IMG/VR virus record: IMGVR_UViG_3300034122_000835
Span: 1 to 34,825 of that record
DNA length: 34,825 bases
DNA from: a virus
Strand: one strand, 5' to 3'
Both the position numbers and the translations under genes were made by a program. The notes beneath the pieces are model-generated. The model was not told where the DNA came from. It did no database searches and worked only from the letters and a program-made list of their open reading frames with translations. Shown in pieces: positions 22,842-34,825 of the stretch; position 1 is the first letter of the stretch, and the number at the start of each line of letters is the position of its first letter.

Positions 22842-24500
22842 TTATGCCTGGTCTGAGCTAAAGTTGTCTGCAGTGCTTCCTTGAGCGTAATTTCCATAGG
22901 ATTTTACAATGCCTACGTTATTGCCCTTAGTTCCAGTATTAGTAGCGGTAAATGTTCCTAGTGAAGTTCCACCAGAGGTCCTAGGTACCACGGTAGCCGT
23001 ATTACCAGACGTTGTCACCCCAATAGTAGCTGGTTGGGCAGATAGCCCTGAAGAGGTGCTATACACGCTGTAGGAGGCCCCTGTAGACGTTGAGTAGATG
23101 ATTTGAAGGTAATAGTTGGTAACCACGCCCCCAGCTGTACAGGTCTGGCAAGTAGACCCGTAAGAGTCGCAGTTAGGGTATGTACCGCCGCTTATAAATG
23201 TTGTAGTGCTGCCGCAGTATTCACAGCTAGTACCAGAGTTATTACATGTTGCCGCAATTGTACAGGTTGTTCCGCTTAGAGTTCCACCACTAGGGCAAGA
23301 ATATGAAGTAACGTTTGTATAACACTGCGTTCCAGAGAGATAAGATCCAGGAAAAGCACTACAACTATATGAAGTTGAGGACGTCACACATCTTGACCCG
23401 CTAACTGTCTGACCTGAAGGACAAGTATAGCCAGTTAAAACGTTAGTAAAGCAATCGGTCCCATTCAAGGTTGAGCCTGGATAAGCAGCACAACTATAAC
23501 TATTGGTAACAGTTCCGCAGTAACAGGATCCCTGTGATCTACCGATACTGCTTCCAGGAACTGGACCTGTTTGCCCTGATCCACAACTTAATCCGTCACA
23601 GTTATAGCCAATTGATGCAATGTAGTATGTGCCTGAACAGGTTGGTGTGGCGCCACTTGGGTAGTTTCCATACTGGGGCTGCCAATAACACATGTTAACA
23701 TTAGAATTGTAGTACTGGTTAGCAGGACAACTATATGTTAGTGTGTAGCACTGAGTACTAAAGAAATTACCACTACAAGAGTACTGGCTTTCACCACCTG
23801 GACAGTACCTAAAGCTAGTAGAACCCCCCACATGAGAATAGGTTGTGCTTGATGTTACAGAGGCGGGCCCTTGATTTTGAGTTGAGTAGACAGGTGTTGC
23901 AGCACCTACATCTGTGGTAGTTGTTACAAGTGTTGCATTTCCTTGTAGAACTGCAGTAGTGCCGCCTGTAGCAGGGTATGTTGTTGGGCAGCTATATGTT
24001 CCAAAAGCAGGATTTGTGCAGGTGTTACAAGTAGTTTGATTATGCCCATTACATACGCAGTTACATGGATAAGTGTAAGTAGTATCTGTTTGATCGCTAG
24101 TAGTTACTGCGCCCCACCAAGAACCTGCCGCTGTTATCCAAAAAGCAGGTCCTGTACCTGTAGTTACCCCAACTGATGTAACTGCATCTGTTGTTCCAAT
24201 ATCTAGGTATGATAAGGCTCCAGCAGTTCCTGAAGACACAGCATTATTAGACTGAGCTTGCGATCCATTTGCAAACCAAGTTCCAAATAAAGAACTCCAA
24301 GAGAAAAAAGACTCAGATGTGCCTAAATTACCGGAAGTTGTTCTGGTAAAGGCATCTCTAAGAGGAATGCTATACCATTGTTTCCATTGACCAGCTACCT
24401 TTATAAACCCTTTTGTTACTGTGCCCCAACCAGTTGAGGTCTTAAGTCGTACAGATGTTACCGACCTAAAAGTAGAACTTACCTTTATTTTCCCTGGCAT
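22842..24500 (-). CDS. Cysteine-rich tail appendage protein (jelly-roll with Cys-rich insertion)
   Basis: A 552-aa protein. Residues 1-45 (SSTFRSVTSVRLKTSTGW, VAGQWKQWYS) are the usual tail-appendage leader. A LamG-like/jelly-roll domain begins at DAFTRTTSGNLG and contains WSSLFGTWFANGS and AFWITAAGSW. It is interrupted after about residue 140 by roughly 320 residues holding 30 cysteines, with repeated units such as YSCPSGGTLSGTTC, YTCPSGQTVSGSRC and YSCSAFPGSYLSGTQC. It then resumes with YYLQIIYSTSTGASYSVYST and closes with the matching DNFSSDQA. The start is set at the TAATG junction; an in-frame TTG 18 nt upstream is less likely. Likely a receptor-binding appendage; disulfide or metal use is unknown. 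Confidence 0.78.
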   Translation of the reverse strand: MPGKIKVSSTFRSVTSVRLKTSTGWGTVTKGFIKVAGQWKQWYSIPLRDAFTRTTSGNLGTSESFFSWSSLFGTWFANGSQAQSNNAVSSGTAGALSYLDIGTTDAVTSVGVTTGTGPAFWITAAGSWWGAVTTSDQTDTTYTYPCNCVCNGHNQTTCNTCTNPAFGTYSCPTTYPATGGTTAVLQGNATLVTTTTDVGAATPVYSTQNQGPASVTSSTTYSHVGGSTSFRYCPGGESQYSCSGNFFSTQCYTLTYSCPANQYYNSNVNMCYWQPQYGNYPSGATPTCSGTYYIASIGYNCDGLSCGSGQTGPVPGSSIGRSQGSCYCGTVTNSYSCAAYPGSTLNGTDCFTNVLTGYTCPSGQTVSGSRCVTSSTSYSCSAFPGSYLSGTQCYTNVTSYSCPSGGTLSGTTCTIAATCNNSGTSCEYCGSTTTFISGGTYPNCDSYGSTCQTCTAGGVVTNYYLQIIYSTSTGASYSVYSTSSGLSAQPATIGVTTSGNTATVVPRTSGGTSLGTFTATNTGTKGNNVGIVKSYGNYAQGSTADNFSSDQA

Positions 24501-25444
24501 TATGCGTATACAACCCAAATATCCCCATCAATAGATGTGGCGGGGGTTGCACCAGTAGTTGCGTGGATATTACGCACAACAGCAGAACTTACAGAGGCTG
24601 TAGTCACAGCACCGTTAGTTGTTGAAACAAACGCTGAAGAAGGAGTTGCCCAGGTGGTAGTTGTTCCGTTACTGGTTAGAACCTGCCCTGTAGTTCCTAT
24701 TGGAAGACGTGTTACTGACGATGCTCCTGTAGCAACAATGAGGTCTCCAGCAACTGATACTGTTGAAAGAGGAATCTTACTAGTATCGGTGGGTGTACCC
24801 CAAACTGCAGCTGTTCCGTTGCTAAGAAGAGCCTGTCCGTTAGTGCCAATTCCAAGACGACCTACTGTAGCGTTTCCAGTTCCTACAATAAGATCACCAG
24901 CAGTTGTTACGGTAGACAAAGCAATTTTTGTAGCCGCAGCTCCAGATGCAGTGCTAGTTGCAGAAACTAGGGTGTTGTAGTCTGTGCTTCCAACATACAG
25001 CACGTTTGCCGTACCTACCTTTGGGATACCTAGGTAGTCTACGTTAAAACCAAGAACATTTGAAGAAGTAAGTGTCTCAAGAAGAGCAAGGGTTCCGGAG
25101 CCTGTTTTAAGGGTAAGAGCTGTGTTTGAAGCTGTGGTTACAACGCTTCCACCATTTTTAGATACATAAGGTGCAGAGGTAACGCCGCTAACTAAACCAG
25201 CTTCAATATTTTTAAGTCTGTCTCCAAGCGTTGCCCACTTAGAGGTTGCGTTCATTGTAGTAGTAAATGTGCCTGAGAATCCAGAGTAAAGTGGGCTTTG
25301 AGCTGTGGTTGTATCCACACCTAGCGCAGTTGCAATTGCAGCTACTTCTTCTTGCAAGGCGTTTACGTGGTCAGCAATTACTACGTTTACAAGATCGATT
25401 TTTGCCTGGAAGGGTCTAACACTCTCGGGAAAATATGCTGCCAT
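24500..25444 (-). CDS. Tail fibre with repeated shaft motif
   Basis: A 314-aa fibre protein. The N-terminal FQAKIDLVNVVIADHVNALQ (helical, trimerisation-like) is followed by beta-rich shaft repeats. The unit GDLIVGTGNATVGRLGIG-TNGQALLSNG-WGTP occurs twice in a row (about 190-270), a repeat common in phage fibres. It ends with SIDGDIWVVYA. AAGGAG lies just before the ATG. It is followed at a TAATG junction by the Cys-rich appendage gene, its probable partner or tip. Confidence 0.82.
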   Translation of the reverse strand: MAAYFPESVRPFQAKIDLVNVVIADHVNALQEEVAAIATALGVDTTTAQSPLYSGFSGTFTTTMNATSKWATLGDRLKNIEAGLVSGVTSAPYVSKNGGSVVTTASNTALTLKTGSGTLALLETLTSSNVLGFNVDYLGIPKVGTANVLYVGSTDYNTLVSATSTASGAAATKIALSTVTTAGDLIVGTGNATVGRLGIGTNGQALLSNGTAAVWGTPTDTSKIPLSTVSVAGDLIVATGASSVTRLPIGTTGQVLTSNGTTTTWATPSSAFVSTTNGAVTTASVSSAVVRNIHATTGATPATSIDGDIWVVYA

Positions 25445-26184: not shown

Positions 26185-26940
26185 TTACATACCTTGATTC
26201 TTATTAAGCTCCATGTTGTTATGAATCCAGTGACCAGGAATCATGTATTTAAACCCAGACTTTACAGTGTGTGCTGTATGAAAATATGGTGGAAATGCTG
26301 GAAATATAACAACGCTATTTGCTTTTGGTTTCAATCCAAAATCAATTGCCTTATTTGCAACAGATACATCATAGTCTAGATCTACAGCTGGTGCTGAGCC
26401 TTTAGAAAAGCCATCAGCGCTAGTCCAGCCCCCATCATAATCTTTTAGCTGAAAAGAAATTTCTCCGCCTTCACAGTCATCGTTTAAATACATGACTAGT
26501 GAGTATCTTAGAGTTTTATCACCATCTAATTGATCAAAATGTGCGCCCATTCCCATACCAGTATTGTACTTCTTTATGTTAAAAGTTGGAAAAAGACGTG
26601 GCTCATCAAAATCGCCCAAAGAAGAGGCGTAATCTTTGCAAACGTTGTACATTGTGGTCATAATAGCGTTGTAAATATATTTACTTTTTTCAGCTACTTC
26701 GGCTGAATACGGAGAAAAGATTGGACTAAGCCGGTTTATTGCATTAATATCAAAAGTCTTTGTTTCTCCATAGATAAAAGAAGCATCGTTAGAAGAGGTC
26801 CAAGGGTTCCAAACATTTACCCCAGAATCCGGATATTGCTCAAGGTCATCTAACTCTTTCCAAACCTTTTTAAAAGTATCAAAGTCCTCAATAGCATCTG
26901 TATAGTAGTATGCTTTTGGATCTAAAATTTCTCTATTCAT
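26185..26940 (-). CDS. 2OG/Fe(II) dioxygenase, prolyl-4-hydroxylase-like (Lys type)
   Basis: A 251-aa dioxygenase that would use 2-oxoglutarate and O2 to hydroxylate a substrate. Iron ligands read as H134-F-D136 and H221 (H224 is also possible), and the 2OG-binding base is K231, 10 residues after H221 as in collagen P4H. The shared strand YLNDDCEGGE (151-160) is present, and the family strand VVIFPAF precedes H221. It differs from its paralogues by a 30-residue Gly/Ser/Asp insertion (about 165-200). It is coupled to the SDR gene. Substrate unknown; peptidyl proline is one candidate. Confidence 0.87.
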   Translation of the reverse strand: MNREILDPKAYYYTDAIEDFDTFKKVWKELDDLEQYPDSGVNVWNPWTSSNDASFIYGETKTFDINAINRLSPIFSPYSAEVAEKSKYIYNAIMTTMYNVCKDYASSLGDFDEPRLFPTFNIKKYNTGMGMGAHFDQLDGDKTLRYSLVMYLNDDCEGGEISFQLKDYDGGWTSADGFSKGSAPAVDLDYDVSVANKAIDFGLKPKANSVVIFPAFPPYFHTAHTVKSGFKYMIPGHWIHNNMELNKNQGM

Positions 26941-26951
26941 CTATATACCCC

Positions 26952-27614
26952 TTAGTATTTATTTTTTTCGTAGTGGTCTTTTTCTTTAATAAACCCAACT
27001 GTAACATACCTAATAGGGCCATCCCCTACAGTTCTTACTCCATGTTCATACTCTTCAGTGCCTGGAAAAATAAGTAAAGTTTTTGGTTTTGGTTTTATGT
27101 CTGATTGCTCTTTATTTTTAAAAAACAAAGTTCCATCTTTATAATCGTCATTAAGGTATAGTATGGCGGCATATCTTATAGATGGGTCTGTAGTTTGGTC
27201 TGTGTGAGCCTTTAGTTCAACACCACTTTGCATTCTTTGCAGCGTTCCAAATCCAGCAAGCTCTAAGGTAGGGTCTGCAAGTTGAACCAGGTTGTTAAGT
27301 CTGTCTTGAATAGTTCTGCTTATTGGCTCATTAACCATCCTTAAGTTTTTATCTTCCCAGCCCGCAGTTATTTCAAACTTTCCTTCAGCAACAAGGTTGT
27401 CTACGTCTTCCCTTCCAAATTTTTCCATACAAAATAGAGCAAGGTTTCTTGTATATTCTACTGACCACTCTTCATTAGGGGTGGCTTCAATTATTTTTAA
27501 TATTGTTTGCAGTTCTTCGTCGTCTAGAAAATTTTCTACTGACAGAACACCCTCGTGTAAAACTTCAACAGGATACCCACTATTTTTAAATTCTTTTTCT
27601 AAAAAGATGCTCAC
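26952..27614 (-). CDS. 2OG/Fe(II) dioxygenase, prolyl-4-hydroxylase-like (Arg type)
   Basis: A 220-aa dioxygenase. H137-T-D139 and H191 bind iron and R202 is the 2OG base. YLNDDYKDGTLFF (153-165) and LLIFPGTEEYEHGV are family strands. The distal His to base spacing is 11, one more than in the other five paralogues. The N-terminal region with VLSVENFLDDEELQTI is the usual P4H helical support. The GTG start follows the preceding TAA without a gap. Cytoplasmic, no signal peptide. Confidence 0.87.
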   Translation of the reverse strand: MSIFLEKEFKNSGYPVEVLHEGVLSVENFLDDEELQTILKIIEATPNEEWSVEYTRNLALFCMEKFGREDVDNLVAEGKFEITAGWEDKNLRMVNEPISRTIQDRLNNLVQLADPTLELAGFGTLQRMQSGVELKAHTDQTTDPSIRYAAILYLNDDYKDGTLFFKNKEQSDIKPKPKTLLIFPGTEEYEHGVRTVGDGPIRYVTVGFIKEKDHYEKNKY

Positions 27615-28361
27615 TTACAGATCCTCTACTTTATACTTATTTCCAGACGCGTCCAGCTTCCAACCCTGCTTAAGAAGCTCTTGCCACTCTGCTCGTTCAA
27701 TCTCTTGTTGTGCTCTAGTAGCCTTCATTTCTTCTGCCCAAGCATCTCGTACCTCTTGTGGGTAAGCTGACTCTTCTCGGTCATCCCAGAAAGACCCAAT
27801 AGTGTATCTTACTCCACCTGTAATAAGAGTCACTTCGTGCATGTTGTTAAATCCCCCATCAAATACAGCAAGCATTCCAACTTCTGGTTTAATTGAGATA
27901 GTTTGTGTTGGGAACTGTAGAAGACCACCTTCAAAATCATCATTAAGATATAGAAAACCTGCATAGCGGCTTCTTGTAAATGCACCCGAGTTTCCTTCAG
28001 CATCTGTGTTATCAGAATGAATTCTTGCGTATGCCCCTGGCTCCCACTTTTGTGTGTGGTACCCAATCTTACAAATTGTTTTTGGATCTAGATCGTGTAC
28101 TGAAGCGATTGCTTCCGGCATTGCTTTTTCAATGTCTGAAAATATGGTTGGAGAGAGACCAGCGTCAATAACTTCTTGATCATTATCCTGCGGCAAAACT
28201 GAAGAGTATGACTCATAAAACGAGATTGGCATCCAAGAGAGTGCACCATTCTCTGCCTGAGCATCTAGGGCTTGAATCATCTTTTTACAATCTTCTTTGC
28301 TTATAAAGTTTTTATAAACAACTATATCTTTTGTTATTCTCGTTTTGTTTTCCAAGTTCAT
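27615..28361 (-). CDS. 2OG/Fe(II) dioxygenase, prolyl-4-hydroxylase-like (Arg type) with helical tail
   Basis: A 248-aa dioxygenase with H115-S-D117, H175 and R185. FLYLNDDFEGGLLQFP and MLAVFDGGFNNMHEV are family strands. A C-terminal extension of about 55 residues (EVRDAWAEEMKATRAQQEIE and on) is strongly helical and charged, unlike the other five, and could bind a partner. GGAG lies upstream; an ATG 8 nt earlier is out of frame and was not used. It starts 16 nt after the peroxidase-like gene. Confidence 0.87.
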   Translation of the reverse strand: MNLENKTRITKDIVVYKNFISKEDCKKMIQALDAQAENGALSWMPISFYESYSSVLPQDNDQEVIDAGLSPTIFSDIEKAMPEAIASVHDLDPKTICKIGYHTQKWEPGAYARIHSDNTDAEGNSGAFTRSRYAGFLYLNDDFEGGLLQFPTQTISIKPEVGMLAVFDGGFNNMHEVTLITGGVRYTIGSFWDDREESAYPQEVRDAWAEEMKATRAQQEIERAEWQELLKQGWKLDASGNKYKVEDL

Positions 28362-28377
28362 TGTGCATTTACTCCGT

Positions 28378-29151
28378 CTAGTTATTTAAAAGGGATTTGT
28401 CTCCAGCAATTAGCTTTTCTATTTCTTGTTGAACAAGGGCGTACTCTTCTTCAAACACCTCTGGAGTTCTACCCTCTCCCAGACCAGCAGGGTTTCCCTC
28501 AGCAATTAGGGCTTCTTTTAGTGTTTTTTCAATATCGTAGTTTAATACTGTGCACTGAAACCAGTTAGCTACATACCCATCTTTATCAATAAGGTACTTT
28601 TCAAAATTTCCGCCTTGCATTGCACCATTAGAAACAGGTTGATTTAGCCAAGGAGACAAGTAGCCATCTCTATCTGGAATTCCAAGTTCTTTTTGTTTTG
28701 CAGCGTAAGCATGCATTTGATCTCTAATCTCACTGTATAGTTCATGTGTTTCTTTTCTTGGTTGTCCTAGACCGTTTACAGTGTTATCTCCCTTATAGGG
28801 ACTAAGCTCAGTAGCACTCTGATTTGGGTTTGACGACACCATCTCTGAGAACTTAAACGTGGTTCCGTAGACTTCTTGACCATATTCTTGTGAGTCTAAA
28901 CCGCAAGTAATACCTTCAGACCATTTACCCTTAGTTACTCCAGGGCCGCAGTAGTCGTTAGTAGGGATCGCAATAACTTGGAAATCATCTCCACCGTACT
29001 TATCTTGAAGCCATTGGAGAACTTCCATTTGATTAGCGTTGCCGCAGCCAACTGTAGTGTTTGTCAGCAGTGTAACCTTACCCTTAAATTGCTCTAAAAA
29101 GCCGGGGGTTCCATCAGCCGAGTTAAGTGGTATGTCATAGATAGATTTCAT
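28378..29151 (-). CDS. Glutathione-peroxidase-like (thioredoxin-fold) protein
   Basis: A 257-aa protein resembling glutathione/thioredoxin peroxidases. Its IYDIPLNSADG, FLEQFKGKVTLLTN and VGCGNANQMEVLQWLQDKY align with the GPx 'GKVLLIVNVASKCG' region. The peroxidatic Cys is C36. The second motif IPTNDYCGP replaces the usual FPCNQFG, so the catalytic Gln is Asp, and GNFEKYLIDKDG lacks the usual Trp before NF. The retained residues are Cys and Asn. C68 or C83 could be resolving. It may be a reduced-activity peroxidase, redox sensor or chaperone. It lies amid the dioxygenase genes. Confidence 0.75.
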   Translation of the reverse strand: MKSIYDIPLNSADGTPGFLEQFKGKVTLLTNTTVGCGNANQMEVLQWLQDKYGGDDFQVIAIPTNDYCGPGVTKGKWSEGITCGLDSQEYGQEVYGTTFKFSEMVSSNPNQSATELSPYKGDNTVNGLGQPRKETHELYSEIRDQMHAYAAKQKELGIPDRDGYLSPWLNQPVSNGAMQGGNFEKYLIDKDGYVANWFQCTVLNYDIEKTLKEALIAEGNPAGLGEGRTPEVFEEEYALVQQEIEKLIAGDKSLLNN

Positions 29152-29171
29152 AGTTATAGTATATCCTGTCG

Positions 29172-29858
29172 TTACGGTTGTTTAGACCCTGTATGTCGGG
29201 TAATTTCCCAAAAGAATGGGCATGTAAATCTTAAACCACTCTTGATTTCAGTAACCCCATGGATATAGTTCTTATCTCCTGGGAAGAAGTATGCAGCACC
29301 CTTTTTAGGCTTAAACTGTACCCCCTGTAGTGGAAAGTATAGCTCACCACCTTCATAATCATCGTTTAAATAAAATAAACTTGATAAGTCATAGTTTGGG
29401 AAGTCGTTAGGTGTTCCAGCATCTGGGCCTTCGTGAAGCTCTTTATCAGCATGTGGTTTTTGAAATTGACCCGGAAGCCACTTAACAATAGTTGTGCCCG
29501 TTGGGTGAACCTCTACCTTATAAAATTCCTCAATAATTGGCCTTAGTCTTTGAAATAGACCAGCAATTACTGGGGATATCTTTGGGTCATTTTTGTCTAA
29601 AGTTGGTTGAGTTGCAACCCGGTCTTTCCAATAATCTGAGTCGTAAGTAACGGTGCCATTTTCATTTGTATGGCTTTGCGTTACGTCCCAAATTGTTAGC
29701 GACTTGGCGGCTTTTTCTAAAAACTCTATCTCTTCTTGGGTCATGAAGTTCTCTAGCTCAACAATCATGTCTTTGCTATCCCCAAACCAGCCTGACGGAG
29801 TTATAGATGGAGTTCTTTTTACTACGGTATACGAGTCTTTATTTGATTCCATGCTCAT
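29172..29858 (-). CDS. 2OG/Fe(II) dioxygenase, prolyl-4-hydroxylase-like (Arg type)
   Basis: A 228-aa dioxygenase with H136-A-D138, H200 and R210. It shows KWLPGQFQKPHAD, LFYLNDDYEGGELYFP and YFFPGDKNYIHGV. Its start overlaps the upstream gene as ATGA, indicating translational coupling with the DUF6065-like gene. Relative to the Lys-type copies it has a longer loop between the HxD motif and the YLNDD strand (LHEGPDAGTPNDF). Substrate unknown. Confidence 0.87.
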   Translation of the reverse strand: MSMESNKDSYTVVKRTPSITPSGWFGDSKDMIVELENFMTQEEIEFLEKAAKSLTIWDVTQSHTNENGTVTYDSDYWKDRVATQPTLDKNDPKISPVIAGLFQRLRPIIEEFYKVEVHPTGTTIVKWLPGQFQKPHADKELHEGPDAGTPNDFPNYDLSSLFYLNDDYEGGELYFPLQGVQFKPKKGAAYFFPGDKNYIHGVTEIKSGLRFTCPFFWEITRHTGSKQP

Positions 29859-30571
29859 AGTATATCTCTTTTCGTCTTATCTATTACATTAAGTTTTAAA
29901 ACTCTTGCCTCATGATTACCTAAAGATTCTTGTTTTTCATTTACAGCATCTCTATACCAGTCTGTCCATTTTCCAGTAGTTATTAATGCCTGTGTGGCCT
30001 CCCCATAAGACCTATTTGCTTTATCCCTTAAACCATTTTCATCTTTATAGTCATAGATCTCTATGGTACTGTTATTTAGGTTAGTTAAAGATATAGGTAT
30101 AATTGTTGCTATCGGGGTTCCGGCCTTTATCACTACCTCTTCGTTTGCCTTTTTTGCCCTAATAGCTAGAGGAAGCGGGTTATCATAAAAAGACGTGCTT
30201 ATCATATTAGCCATTGTTTCAAAGTATTCACTAAAATAATTAACAGGGTTTATAGTAAGAAGGCTTGTATTTTCGTCTGTTCTAAATACTAAACCAGTAT
30301 TTAAACTAATAGACGACTGCCCTCTTCCAGAATAGGATCCTTCTGGACTAAAAATTTGAACGTGATCTGCCGTTGCATCTGTTACCCCATCCCAAATAAA
30401 TTTAATATCTTGAGAGCAAGAAAGGCTCCACCCTACGACATTTGCTTGTGTTACTGGAAAGCATCTGTATGCATGGTTTTCTGCTGTTGCGTCCATCCAG
30501 TCTCGCTTAATTGACATAGGTTGAATATCAAACAACGCCCCATGTGTCTTTTCAACTGAAATGTTAAACAT
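29855..30571 (-). CDS. DUF6065-like protein, copy 2
   Basis: A 238-aa beta-rich protein of unknown function. HAYRCFPVTQANVVGWSLSC, DIKFIWDG, GLVFRTDENTSLL-INPVNYF and VIKAGTPIATIIPI match, in order, the segments of the copy at 31238-32005. I recall a phage/bacterial family (DUF6065) with this layout, from memory and unverified. No catalytic residues are evident. The TAATG and ATGA junctions couple it to dioxygenase genes on both sides. It may present substrate or form a partner subunit (inference). Confidence 0.7.
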   Translation of the reverse strand: MFNISVEKTHGALFDIQPMSIKRDWMDATAENHAYRCFPVTQANVVGWSLSCSQDIKFIWDGVTDATADHVQIFSPEGSYSGRGQSSISLNTGLVFRTDENTSLLTINPVNYFSEYFETMANMISTSFYDNPLPLAIRAKKANEEVVIKAGTPIATIIPISLTNLNNSTIEIYDYKDENGLRDKANRSYGEATQALITTGKWTDWYRDAVNEKQESLGNHEARVLKLNVIDKTKRDIL

Positions 30572-31227
30572 TAGTCAGAATCTGCGCTATACATCTCTGG
30601 GGTATGGAACTTTTTGCTGTAGTCAAGCATTGTCACAATAGAGTACTTAGTTCCGGAAGTTACTGGCATCGCTTGATGTGGATACATAAAGTTTGATGGA
30701 AAAATAAACAGGTCCCCAGCCTCTGGCTTAACCTTTAAGTTCTGGAGTCTAAAGAATAGTTCTCCGCCCTCGTAATCGTCATTAACGTATCCAACCAAAG
30801 ACACAGTACAGTTATAAGAAAATCCATGGTCATGGTGTTCCATAAAGTGCTGTCCTGGACCATACTTAATGAAGTTGAATGCTTCCCAGTACTTTAGGTT
30901 GTTAATGTTATACGTTCTGCAGTAGTCTTGAACTGCAGGTGACTTAACATCGTATAGGTCTTGCCACAAAGCTTGAAGGTTTAAGCTAACCTGACTCTTG
31001 TCATTTTCTATATCAGTCTTCTTAAACTTAAAGTCGTTGCAGTCTCTGTACTCTGGCATAAGTTGTTTATACCCAACATACGCGGGTTGCCAAGCATACC
31101 CAGTCATATCTCCTTCTGGCTTTAGGTTAGCCTCAATTCTGTTTATAACATCAATCTCTTTCTTAATTACGCCCTTATAACGGAATATACCGCTGCCTAG
31201 GTCTTCTTTATCTGTCCATGTTTGCAT
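30571..31227 (-). CDS. 2OG/Fe(II) dioxygenase, prolyl-4-hydroxylase-like (Lys type)
   Basis: A 218-aa dioxygenase with H131-H-D133, H184 and K194. YVNDDYEGGELFF, GDLFIFPSNFMYPHQA and SGTKYSIV are the family segments. It is most similar to the copy at 32005-32712: both have HGxxYNCTVS after the HxD and SNxxYxH before K. The start is set at the ATG at 31227, with AGGGAGA 6 nt upstream. The frame extends to an ATG at 31287, but that would overlap the preceding gene by 50 nt. TAATG junction with the following DUF6065-like gene. Confidence 0.87.
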   Translation of the reverse strand: MQTWTDKEDLGSGIFRYKGVIKKEIDVINRIEANLKPEGDMTGYAWQPAYVGYKQLMPEYRDCNDFKFKKTDIENDKSQVSLNLQALWQDLYDVKSPAVQDYCRTYNINNLKYWEAFNFIKYGPGQHFMEHHDHGFSYNCTVSLVGYVNDDYEGGELFFRLQNLKVKPEAGDLFIFPSNFMYPHQAMPVTSGTKYSIVTMLDYSKKFHTPEMYSADSD

Positions 31228-31237
31228 TATATTCTCC

Positions 31238-32005
31238 CTATTTGTAGTTTCTTTTTGACCAAACTTTGTTTTGGTATACGCCTCCATCAGGCTGTCGGTA
31301 AAATTGCATGTTTTTAACTAATTTATCATACATTGTAGACTGGTCTAAAATTTCTACTTTGTGTTCCCAGTCCTCTCTTTTAAACGGAAGTACTTGAAGA
31401 TAAGGTGTTCCGGCGGGTATTGTACCCTCCCACCCCTCCGTAATAAAAAATGGAAAAGTTCCAAGAAGGTGGACATTGTCTGAATCAACGATCCCAGTAG
31501 TATTTAAAAATGGTAAGTCAAATCTGTTCATTGGTGTCATAAACAGTGCGCTATACCCTTCTGGAAGCTCTAATCCCCAAGGAGGACTCCAAGCAAAGTG
31601 ATATTGATAGTATCCCTTTGGGTGCTCAAACTGTGGCATAGGTGGTCGTTGAGTACAAAAATCCTTATTCTTAGGGTCATCAATTTTTACATCGATAATT
31701 CCCTGGTCATTTTTATAAAAAACTAAATCGCATGGTGTTTTAAAAATGTACCCAGTTGTAAAAGCGTCCATAATAGCAGGGCACGCTTTCCATGTAGGAA
31801 TCTTTCCATAGTCATCTGTTGTGCCTTCTTTAGGGAATGGGCAAACTTCTTTTGGCGCCTTATAGTATTCCCCGTTTGGCATTTTTGCAAATCTGTCTGC
31901 ATCTTTATACCAGTCTGGTATCTGTGTTTGTGTTGGTGCGGGGACAGAAATATGCTTTTTATCTATCCATGGTCTAAAAGATCTAAATATAGCTACTAAA
32001 GACAT
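31238..32005 (-). CDS. DUF6065-like protein, copy 1
   Basis: A 255-aa protein of unknown function. It has IPDWYKDADRFAK near the N terminus, then WKACPAIMDAFTTGYIFKTP-CDLVFY, WGLELPEGYSALFMTPMNRF, GIVDSDNV and TIPAGTPYLQVLPFKRE. These correspond to segments in the copy at 29855-30571, so the two are distant paralogues. A similar protein occurs in marine T4-like phage genomes as I remember, without assigned role. It begins at a TAATG junction with the first dioxygenase gene. Confidence 0.7.
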   Translation of the reverse strand: MSLVAIFRSFRPWIDKKHISVPAPTQTQIPDWYKDADRFAKMPNGEYYKAPKEVCPFPKEGTTDDYGKIPTWKACPAIMDAFTTGYIFKTPCDLVFYKNDQGIIDVKIDDPKNKDFCTQRPPMPQFEHPKGYYQYHFAWSPPWGLELPEGYSALFMTPMNRFDLPFLNTTGIVDSDNVHLLGTFPFFITEGWEGTIPAGTPYLQVLPFKREDWEHKVEILDQSTMYDKLVKNMQFYRQPDGGVYQNKVWSKRNYK

Positions 32006-32712
32006 TACTTGTGCCCCAATTCATTGATATCTGTCATAATAACAACGCAATATTTTGTCCCTGAAACCATTGGAAGGGACGCATGCTCATAAATATAGTT
32101 TGATGGGAAGACTGCAATGTCTCCCACCTTTGGCTTATAAACTAAATTATCAAGTCTTGGGAACTTTATTTCCCCGCCTTCATAATCATCGTTAATATAA
32201 ATAACAGCAGATACTGTACAGTTATACGCTGGACCGTGATCTGCATGAATATTAAAGTGGGTACCACTTCCCTCATACTTTACAAAGTTAAAGGCTTCAT
32301 AATACACTACGTTAATACCCCAGTATCTAGCATAGTCATCTATGCAGTACTTAAGCTTTTGATAGATTTCCTCATGCAGATCAATTAATTCTGAGTTAGT
32401 TTCACTTCTTGGCCCTAAATTTTCTTGCTTGTATTTAAAGTCTACAGCGTCTCTAGCTTTTTTAATTGGTGTTGTAGAGTTTGTTACCTGTGCTTCAGAC
32501 CACTTATACGTTCCATTTTGCCCTAGGTTTGACTCAAGGGTACTGATGTATCTGTTTGCATCATCTAAGGAAAATGTGTTGTGGTAGACGTGTAGCCCTA
32601 ACCCAAGATTTTCAGCGGTAATTCCCTGACCAACTTCTTTTACAGGAACCCTATTTGAAGCAGTTTCTGATCTGTCTTTTGTGAACCAGATATTTTCATT
32701 CTCGTTATGCAT
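32005..32712 (-). CDS. 2OG/Fe(II) dioxygenase, prolyl-4-hydroxylase-like (Lys type), first gene of operon
   Basis: A 235-aa dioxygenase with H156-A-D158, H210 and K220; the 10-residue His-to-Lys spacing is the same as in collagen P4H. Family strands are IYINDDYEGGEIKFP and IAVFPSNYIYEHA. The N-terminal region (KEVGQGITAENLGLGLHVYH) precedes helices that support the double-stranded beta helix. A promoter lies about 35 nt upstream, with GATAGGG before the ATG. It is followed by a DUF6065-like gene at TAATG. No signal peptide; substrate unknown. Confidence 0.88.
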   Translation of the reverse strand: MHNENENIWFTKDRSETASNRVPVKEVGQGITAENLGLGLHVYHNTFSLDDANRYISTLESNLGQNGTYKWSEAQVTNSTTPIKKARDAVDFKYKQENLGPRSETNSELIDLHEEIYQKLKYCIDDYARYWGINVVYYEAFNFVKYEGSGTHFNIHADHGPAYNCTVSAVIYINDDYEGGEIKFPRLDNLVYKPKVGDIAVFPSNYIYEHASLPMVSGTKYCVVIMTDINELGHK

Positions 32713-32783: not shown

Positions 32784-33218
32784 CTATAAGTCAAAAAAAG
32801 TAGCGGATGTAAAAGGCGGTTCATATGGGTTGGGGTCTAATACATCCATATCTCTATCTGTAATAGTAAATTGTGTCCCATCAAAAGTTGCGTATGGTGA
32901 AACTACGTATGCTCCAAATGGATAATCAAAAAGACATAGAACTGAATGCGGAGTTAAAAGTATAGCTGCAAGAAAGTCTGATGCGTGCAACACTTCAAAA
33001 TTTTCTTCGTCCATGATAATTTTAACCGTTACCCCCTCATTATCTGGGTATTCGTCAGAAATATCAACAATGCCTTTGTTATTAAAAAATAGTTCTGAAC
33101 CATACTTAGTCGATGGAAAGTCATAGACACATTGCCCATCAATAACAAAAACTAGTGGCATCCCAACTACGCTTGTTGATATTCTTGGGTCATACGTTAA
33201 CTCTTCTATTGTTATCAT
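32784..33218 (-). CDS. Two-module 'FVIDG' protein
   Basis: A 144-aa acidic protein with two copies of the module seen once in the 82-aa protein at 22289-22537: LVFVIDGQCVYDF...GIVDIS, then KIIMDEENFEVLHASDFLAAILL...VLCLF. The start is set at the ATG at 33218 (MITIEELTYD). The frame extends to 33275, which would overlap the previous gene by 37 nt. The ribosome-binding site is weak. Function unknown; it stands between appendage genes and the dioxygenase operon. Confidence 0.7.
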   Translation of the reverse strand: MITIEELTYDPRISTSVVGMPLVFVIDGQCVYDFPSTKYGSELFFNNKGIVDISDEYPDNEGVTVKIIMDEENFEVLHASDFLAAILLTPHSVLCLFDYPFGAYVVSPYATFDGTQFTITDRDMDVLDPNPYEPPFTSATFFDL

Positions 33219-33238: not shown

Positions 33239-34279
33239 TTAGCAGAATCCTCCGCTTGCAGAGAGACTGAGGCACTGGCTTGGGAAGCTACATCCAATTC
33301 CTCGTGACATATCGGCACTGGTGCACTGCCTTCTGCTAGTTGCAAAGTATGGGAAGAACGGGAAGTATGGACCAAATGTTGGTGGGAAGAATGGCGGGAA
33401 GAACGGGAAGAACGGGAAGAATGGCGGGAAGAATGGTGGGAAGAATGGTGGGAAGAATGGTGGAAAGAATGGGAAAAATGGTGGGAAAAAGGGAGGAAAG
33501 AATGGGAAGAACGGGAAGAATGGCGGGAAGAATGGTGGGAAGAAAGGAAAGAATGGTGGGAAGAAAGGCGGGAAGAAAGGAAAGAATGGGAAGAATGGAG
33601 GGAAGAATGGAGGAAAGAACGGAAAGAAGGGAGGGAAAAACGGTGGGAAGAAAGGAAAGAATGGTGCAATAGTAGTAACTGCGCTTGTTCCGGCTGCATC
33701 TGAAGTTCCATTAGCATTAGTTGCGGTAATAGTATAGCTCTGTGATCCTGGAGAAGCAGCACTAGGTGTGCTATCTGAGGCATCATAAGTCACTGCTGAG
33801 CCTGCAATACCTGTGTAACTTGTGCCGTCAGAGCCAGTAATTGTATAGGAGGTAAGTGCACTACCACCGGTGGCCCCAGCAGTCCAACTAATCCTGTTAA
33901 GGTTTGCAGAAACTGTAGCTGCGGAAACTGACTGTGGTGCTTGTGGGTTTGTTGTAATGGCGATTGCAGAAGAGGCAGTAGAGGCAGGGGAAGTTCCTGC
34001 AGCATTTGTTGCTGTTACTGTAAATGTTACAGATGCGCTAACAGGGATACCAGTAACTGTGATTGGAGATGATGCCCCAGATGCTGTCTGTCCGCTACTT
34101 GCCGTTACTGTAAAAGATGTGGCTGCTGGAGAAAGTGCTGGTAAAGAGAATGAAACAACTGCTGCGCCGTTATTGTACGCTCTGCCTGTTCCAACGTTTG
34201 AAGCAGATACGCTTGTTGGCGCTAATGGCTCTAGAAAGTCATTAGATGCAGCGGAACGTCTACCAGTCTTCTTAGCCAT
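33239..34279 (-). CDS. Fn3 protein with long Phe/Pro repeat tail
   Basis: A 346-aa appendage-type protein. Residues about 20-110 and 111-203 are two fibronectin type III-like domains (PQAPQSVSAATV, RISWTAGATGGSALTSYTI, SYTITATNANGTS). They are followed by about 107 residues made almost only of F and P in FFP and PFFP units (about 204-312). The tail has four cysteines (RRQC, GC, SQC, GFC). The repeat DNA at 33349-33663 is purine-biased on the plus strand. All repeat units are 9 or 12 nt, so expansion keeps the frame. Likely a virion surface or host-contact protein. No characterised counterpart of the FFP block is known to me. Confidence 0.8.
   Translation of the reverse strand: MAKKTGRRSAASNDFLEPLAPTSVSASNVGTGRAYNNGAAVVSFSLPALSPAATSFTVTASSGQTASGASSPITVTGIPVSASVTFTVTATNAAGTSPASTASSAIAITTNPQAPQSVSAATVSANLNRISWTAGATGGSALTSYTITGSDGTSYTGIAGSAVTYDASDSTPSAASPGSQSYTITATNANGTSDAAGTSAVTTIAPFFPFFPPFFPPFFPFFPPFFPPFFPFFPFFPPFFPPFFPFFPPFFPPFFPFFPFFPPFFPPFFPFFPPFFPPFFPPFFPPFFPFFPFFPPFFPPTFGPYFPFFPYFATSRRQCTSADMSRGIGCSFPSQCLSLSASGGFC
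33349..33663. repeat. 9/12-nt tandem repeat tract coding (FFP)n
   Basis: About 315 bases of imperfect GGGAAGAAT/GGGAAGAACGG units on the plus strand, nearly all G/A with G3 runs about every 9-12 nt. The minus strand codes FFP and PFFP. The G runs could form quadruplex or triplex structures, and the tract is prone to slippage in multiples of three. Long plus-strand reading frames here (GKNGGKN) are composition artefacts. Confidence 0.9.
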
Positions 34280-34292
34280 TTATCCCTCCCTA

Positions 34293-34825
34293 TTACGCTG
34301 TTAGATCGCCGTAAACTACCCAAGTATTTGTTGCCCTCTTGAATAGTGTGCATGATGACCATGTTGTTCTTAGTTTTAATCCTGGTGTTGCGTTTACTGT
34401 TACTCCAGCGTCTCCAGCAATTGTTACCTGTCCTGTAGAGGTTTGAAGAATATCAATTGATGTTCCTACTGGAAAGGCTACTGCTGAGTTTAGGGGTATT
34501 GTGAGTGTCATTGCTGACGCTGATCCCATCTCAATTAAGTCATCTCTCTCAGTTAGAGCAGAAAGTGTGTAAGAGGCTGTCTTTTGAATAATTGGAGTAC
34601 GTGATGGTACGCCTTCAAGGGCCTGTGTTCCATCTGAAAACACAATTCCTGCAGCAGGAAGAGTTACAGTGCCAGTAAATGTGGGAGAAGCAAGCGGGGC
34701 TTTTAATCCAAGATTAGTTGTTACTGTTGATGCAAAGTTTGCATCGTCACCAAGTGCTGCTGCAAGCTCGTCAAGTGTGTTTAAAGCTGCTGGTGCTCCT
34801 GCAAGCAATGCATTTACTTGTGATG
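34293..34825 (-). CDS. Tail fibre protein, C-terminal part (runs off the window)
   Basis: Partial: the frame is open to the right edge (SQVNALLAGAPAALNTLDEL continues across the first in-frame TTG at 34808), so the true start is outside. The visible 177 residues include the common fibre segment LNTLDELAAALGDDANFAST with PLASPTFTGTVTLP, a beta-rich region and the tip ending NTWVVYGDLTA. This LDELAAALGDD/SPTFTG pair is widespread in phage fibres and marks the shaft just before a tip domain. Its stop is 13 nt upstream of the Fn3/FFP gene. Confidence 0.82.
   Translation of the reverse strand, partial: SQVNALLAGAPAALNTLDELAAALGDDANFASTVTTNLGLKAPLASPTFTGTVTLPAAGIVFSDGTQALEGVPSRTPIIQKTASYTLSALTERDDLIEMGSASAMTLTIPLNSAVAFPVGTSIDILQTSTGQVTIAGDAGVTVNATPGLKLRTTWSSCTLFKRATNTWVVYGDLTA

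Follow-up and report, generated by a model that had tools for sequence, protein, structure and literature searches.

What does a run of about 105 residues, made almost wholly of Phe and Pro, do in a phage protein encoded next to tail-fibre genes? The question is raised by an IMG/VR virus record of 34,825 bases, which we analysed over its whole length and call the window. Here, an open reading frame on the minus strand (33239-34279) encodes a protein that we name PFFP after its repeat. The first-pass annotation had described the repeat as coding, as built of 9- and 12-nt units and as extraordinarily hydrophobic, and all of this holds, with the tract at 33350-33664, one base off the coordinates first given. 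Residues 206-300 (95 residues) consist of Phe (52) and Pro (43) only, a few Tyr, Thr and Gly interruptions lie between residues 300 and 310, and the units PFF (9 nt) and PPFF (12 nt) occur in a mixture of 3- and 4-residue spacing. In the window we count 7 occurrences of the coding pattern PFFPFFPPFFP, as against 0 expected from 100 dinucleotide shuffles, and TRF reports periods of 12, 21, 33, 54 and 75 nt. Open frames on the opposite strand over the tract (33321-33737 and 33340-33672) are a trivial effect of composition, because TTY and CCN codons give no stop in the other frames. We know of no structural precedent for a shaft as hydrophobic as this tract.

A scan of IMG/VR returned 249 relatives, of which 80 were kept, and further scans brought the total to 191 distinct genes; 144 of the 191 have a complete C-terminus together with the N-terminal part, and these form our complete set. 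They share one architecture: an N-terminal part (FN3-type in those relatives examined), a PFF/PPFF tract that ranges from 18 to 160 aa (median 76.5) and a C-terminal segment that measures 2-188 aa. All 144 are phage, and so many distinct complete relatives dispose of the worry that the tract is an assembly artefact. Their tracts are 53% Phe, 43% Pro and 2% Tyr, and substitutions apart from Tyr are almost absent. Across ~85,000 bacterial and archaeal genomes the PFFP pattern matched once only, in a 5.3-kb contig that is itself a piece of phage DNA and carries the neighbours seen in the other loci, and on these grounds we rejected a host or cellular origin of the repeat. This fragment (L163) had been binned into a Chitinophagaceae MAG, probably in error. 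A tblastn search of INPHARED (low-complexity filter on) found no isolated phage relative, and the open-access papers that we searched made no mention of phage repeats of the PFFP or FFPFFP type. Most relatives are probably from freshwater, as read from IMG dataset numbers and the literature, and for the window phage an actinobacterial host is plausible, since its tail sheath is closest to those of Streptomyces myophages (34% identity).

The protein has three parts (Table 1). In the N-terminal base, Pfam matches fn3 at the cut-off (PF00041, E 2.1e-5, 25 bits), AlphaFold predicts two confident beta-sandwich domains from an alignment with 20 relatives (pLDDT mostly above 90), and Foldseek aligns them with the tandem FN3 domains of neogenin, NCAM and integrin beta4 (E about 1e-9); profile and fold thus agree on FN3 membership. 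No other Pfam family, Peptidase_S74 included, matches the window protein (P0001), a search that is weak for excluding an effector domain in tips this short, and it has no PHROG match. Tract and tip are modelled as low-confidence coil (tract monomer pLDDT about 44-59), and the stalk, tips and partner appear to match no family that we searched. After the tract, a 36-aa Cys-containing C-terminus, YFATSRRQCTSADMSRGIGCSFPSQCLSLSASGGFC, closes the protein. Because the protein continues past the tract into this segment, which the first-pass annotation had overlooked, the tract is better read as a stalk than as a tip, and the membrane-inserting tip that had been thought conceivable at first pass is unlikely as worded, since beyond the tract comes a further C-terminal module that is distinct and exchangeable.

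Our preferred reading, to which we give a probability of about 0.62, is that the tract forms the stalk of an adhesin at the tail-fibre tip, with a conserved base, a replaceable receptor-binding tip and a cognate chaperone. Alternatively, the tract itself could be the working part, inserting into a membrane or envelope after the tip has bound or assembling into a hydrophobic bundle or fibre. Such an extreme Phe and Pro content across the 144 relatives, changed almost only to Tyr, is far above what a plain linker needs. Yet the tract sits between two modules, ranges over the lengths given above and mixes 3- and 4-residue spacing with no obvious amphipathic pattern, and we consider a working role of this kind unlikely.

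Table 1. Features of the PFFP locus in the window.
Feature	Position	Strand	Evidence
Upstream tail-fibre protein, C-terminal end, runs off the contig	34293..34823	-	PHROG tail fibre / minor tail protein, best 1e-16
PFFP-repeat protein, putative tail-fibre tip, 346 aa	33239..34279	-	ORF and relatives
Cys-free N-terminal base, residues 1-205, with two fibronectin type III domains	33665..34279	-	Pfam fn3, AlphaFold, Foldseek
PFF/PPFF repeat, predicted stalk, residues 206-310 (206-300 pure F/P)	33350..33664	-	Translation, relatives, AlphaFold
Exchangeable C-terminal tip module, residues 311-346, 4 Cys, YFATSRRQCTSADMSRGIGCSFPSQCLSLSASGGFC	33242..33349	-	Replaced in relatives
Putative cognate partner gene of Cys-rich tip, 144 aa, family 4	32784..33218	-	Association with tips of at least 4 Cys, co-swap, alignment, AlphaFold
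2OG-Fe(II) oxygenase, first of six in 26185-32712	32005..32712	-	PF13640, E 1.9e-10; HxD..H..K motif
Conserved 255-aa protein	31238..32005	-	Homologues near adhesin of haloviruses

The gene neighbourhood places PFFP among tail genes. A tail-fibre gene lies directly upstream of the PFFP gene in every locus with enough sequence, and tail-fibre genes adjoin PFFP in every relative, in line with the virion-appendage context suggested in the first-pass annotation; the protein is probably carried on the virion. Downstream of PFFP come mostly zero to two small genes, then a 2OG-Fe(II) oxygenase, the 255-aa protein, more oxygenases and a DUF6065-type protein, and the order tail fibre, PFFP, (partner), 2OG oxygenase, conserved genes is found in about 77 loci. 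Searching by the 255-aa protein recovered PFFP upstream in 45 of 45 testable loci. In the window, the six 2OG-Fe(II)-oxygenase-like genes lie among a DUF6065 gene and others on the minus strand, an unusual cluster just after the putative adhesin. The same cluster holds a glutathione-peroxidase/TlpA-like thiol protein (28378-29151, minus strand), which could bear on the disulphide chemistry of Cys-rich tips. Elsewhere in the window, neither Pfam nor PHROG matches the 558-aa product of 22842-24518 (minus strand), in which Cys, Tyr and Thr are very abundant and CxxC-type repeats occur.

The oxygenases raise the possibility, compatible with the adhesin reading, that Pro (or Tyr) residues of the tract are their substrates and that the stalk forms a rod carrying hydroxyl groups and possibly glycans. 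The family is present in 74 loci, downstream of PFFP in nearly all those with enough sequence, and five of the six window genes keep the HxD..H..R/K motif intact. However, 2OG oxygenases are common in cyanophages (PMC3037559), where we found no PFFP protein, and it seems to us improbable that the tract is their target. The 255-aa protein forms a link between bacterial and archaeal viruses: in haloarchaeal Hafunaviridae, homologues with about 30% identity are encoded near the adhesin, which sets host range in those viruses (PMC8651126). The two loci are alike in having the homologue close by, but the adhesin of Hafunaviridae is rich in glycine and lacks both FN3 and PFFP, and its surroundings contain no annotated 2OG gene.

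What follows the tract differs among phages. The kinds of tip are mutually unrelated and comprise Cys-rich modules, Hint-like domains, short tails (for example, RGY or GGNKFDPRAT) and Peptidase_S74 starts, the last in L219, L235 and L278, where the second half lies in the next ORF. We set tip classes by Cys count, partner family and domain, as automatic clustering collapsed via very short tips. Cys-rich tips usually have 4, 6, 8 or 10 Cys, and 117 of the 144 N-terminal parts have none; because Cys counts are mostly even at the C-terminus and Cys is almost absent elsewhere, the C-terminal module may be disulphide-linked in most members. We rejected the L019 tip as a known knottin, as it gave only weak LDL-receptor matches (E 0.3). 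Terminal Hint/intein-like domains follow the tract in L021, L036, L224, L077, L199 and others; several start with Cys and some end in HNK, and they look as if they cleave themselves at the stalk end. One locus, L067, has two tandem PFFP genes with different Cys-rich tips and, between them, a partner-4 gene and a small gene.

The Cys-rich tips are accompanied by a partner gene. A small gene lies immediately downstream of 68 of the 70 tips with at least 4 Cys, as opposed to 7 of 47 other tips, the seven being S74 pieces or unrelated ORFs; the Fisher value of 1.3e-21 is not a true p, since the rows are related by descent and the counts overstate independence, a point taken up by the tree and the pairwise comparisons given further on. 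Partner family varies with tip type: CxYCWxC and related tips go with family 1, the window type with family 4 and knottin-like tips with family 5. In a search by partner 1, PFFP was the gene immediately upstream in 38 of 38 testable loci, and no isolated relatives were found for partner family 1 or for the DUF6065 protein. The window partner, whose start we set at MITIEEL rather than at the GTG at 33275, has no Pfam match and weak PHROG hits. AlphaFold models it (pLDDT 76.6) as a duplicated beta-beta-alpha-beta unit, and for this family-4 fold Foldseek/VIA gave no convincing BFVD or PDB match, with none above Z 2.7. By HMM, families 1, 4 and 5 have no chaperone match. Families 1 and 4 both appear to be beta-beta-alpha-beta repeats ending in DGxxF; a single family for the two was rejected, as hhalign was not significant.

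A conserved N-terminus, a repeat and a variable C-terminus whose type goes with that of the gene downstream are also the layout of polymorphic toxins, and some members have Hint domains; the C-terminus would then be an effector, with Hint as the processing domain, and the downstream gene would confer immunity. We regard this as very improbable, because the tips are mostly Cys-rich or short peptides of 5-45 aa with no enzyme match, the Hint domains are terminal with nothing after them, the PFFP gene adjoins tail-fibre genes and the cellular genomes hold no relative except the one phage contig. The S74 tail-fibre chaperone halves that adjoin some tips count for the adhesin and chaperone reading.

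Tips and partners change together on a conserved base. A tree built from the FN3 part requires no fewer than 45 changes of tip class, the lowest number possible being 7, and many of these changes are forced by well-supported branches alone. Between L107 and L100, the FN3 part matches at 96% and the next oxygenase at 95%, as against 39% for the tip and 22% for the partner, and L101 and L031 show the same pattern. At the DNA level, both pairs retain 86-89% up to the tract, none over tip and partner and 87-89% after, with homology ending at or near the tract end and resuming after the partner. For L087 and L107, it is the tip (85%) and partner (84%) that match more closely than the FN3 part (63%), and DNA homology is lost in FN3 and regained inside the tract. 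We thus observe a variable tip exchanged on a conserved base, as in adhesin cassettes, and an adjacent partner co-exchanged with it, as for fibre chaperones; judging from this co-exchange, the window partner (32784-33218) is likely to be a chaperone or cap. Between phages with diverged FN3 parts, exact shared stretches have a median of 32 nt in the tract versus 11 nt in FN3. These long matches result from the protein repeat itself, because a tract recoded with ordinary codons still shares 29 nt.

The tract also changes length in frame, as the first-pass annotation had expected of its 9- and 12-nt units. Five allele pairs with 450 identical nt before the tract have tracts of 79/44, 143/120, 116/105, 142/97 and 104/89 aa, absolute lengths that are uncertain because they come from metagenome assemblies, in which reads shorter than the tract may collapse or expand repeats and many contigs end inside it. 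The window and its closest relative, L084, agree without mismatch over FN3 and tract, and L084 has exactly one extra 33-nt unit. Repeat number is therefore not invariant, and 6,196 neighbouring motif pairs include no out-of-frame step; in some other alleles, tract length is constant across samples. All nine other differences between the window gene and L084 fall in the tip and change seven codons, six synonymously and one non-synonymously, a pattern that fits recombination into the tip better than targeted mutagenesis. We rejected a DGR-diversified variable protein for this reason, as alleles that are nearly identical often differ in their tips by synonymous changes.

The tract has its own codon usage. 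TTC encodes 92% of its Phe residues, compared with about 15% in the N-terminal part and 14% downstream, and this switch is seen in 144 of 144 genes. Among Phe pairs in the tract, 2,486 are TTC-TTC and 19 are TTT-TTT; each of the two residues uses TTC at 92% regardless of the other, which excludes T-run avoidance as a simple cause. Codon bias for keeping DNA homology is not needed either, given the 29 versus 32 nt shared by recoded and natural tracts. The switch is real, and candidate causes are efficient decoding of Phe-rich sequence or concerted evolution from a founder unit. The G3 runs of the non-coding strand, for which quadruplex or triplex DNA had been suggested, are not selected, because TTC is equally frequent before Phe or Tyr (92.0%) and before Pro (91.7%). 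We found no G4 motif with loops up to 7, and there are 21 G3 runs versus 22.0 +/- 1.5 under synonymous shuffling. A purine occupies the third position in some 89% of the tract's Pro codons, as against 58% in the rest of the window, and breaks the polypyrimidine run that a triplex needs. A function of the tract as DNA, be it G-quadruplex, triplex or recombination signal, could draw on the TTC switch but is the least probable explanation of all, as reading frame and F/P identity are kept throughout, G4 motifs are not in excess, Pro third bases interrupt the polypyrimidine runs and the long exact matches, surviving recoding, follow from the protein repeat.

Under the adhesin reading, the two FN3 domains would attach the protein to the fibre or baseplate, and the Phe/Pro repeat, perhaps as a rod, would project the small C-terminal module that lies beyond it. 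This module would be the part that contacts the host and may bind its receptor. The downstream small gene, which is seen to be exchanged with the tip, may encode a dedicated folding or capping partner. Because the same simple repeat is present in all these phages, the stalk could act as a homologous boundary at which tip and partner are swapped between them, and unequal recombination or slippage could produce the in-frame length changes; the outcomes of both processes are what we observe in the alleles. Much more tentatively, and with more doubt than conviction, PFFP repeats might constitute a structurally new kind of viral shaft, in the form of an entirely hydrophobic Phe/Pro rod whose codon programme is its own; the rod would also serve as a universal splice point across which a large group of probably freshwater phages exchanges tip-plus-partner cassettes.

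Collagen-like phage fibres have shafts of low-complexity, proline-containing repeats that vary in length. The PFFP tract shares these features but has no Gly-X-Y, consisting of Phe and Pro with no Gly at each third residue. Fibres with a Peptidase_S74 intramolecular chaperone offer another comparison, since split S74 pieces follow the tract in the three relatives named above; the domain is absent from the window protein. In the T-even gp37/gp38 adhesins (T2, S16, PP01), a hypervariable receptor-contact part goes with a dedicated small protein (PMC12892980), and in Alteromonas phage V22 (gp26/gp27), a receptor-binding protein depends for its function on an adjoining chaperone gene (PMC7289586). 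gp38 is a glycine-rich polyglycine-II sandwich, whereas PFFP carries its tip, a short module that is Cys-rich or of another kind, at the end of a Phe/Pro stalk in the same chain; we found no gp38 homology, and the tips are Cys-rich, short or Hint rather than of a glycine-rich, PGII type. Unlike known tail-fibre/chaperone pairs, PFFP partners 1, 4 and 5 have no chaperone HMM match and family 4 has no chaperone match by fold. By analogy, the PFFP locus would work like the gp37/gp38 and fibre/chaperone cassettes without being a member of the gp38 family.

If the adhesin reading is correct, a widespread group of uncultured and probably freshwater phages would change their host-contact piece through a shared repeat joint, with each tip travelling alongside its helper gene, apparently an unrecognised way of changing what a virus grabs. 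The stalk poses a biophysical question, namely how a soluble virion would carry about 100 residues of pure Phe and Pro. The tips would amount to an extensive natural collection of small modules rich in disulphides, with partners to match, and the tract and its neighbours would provide a sequence tag with which to find this phage group and its adhesins in metagenomes.
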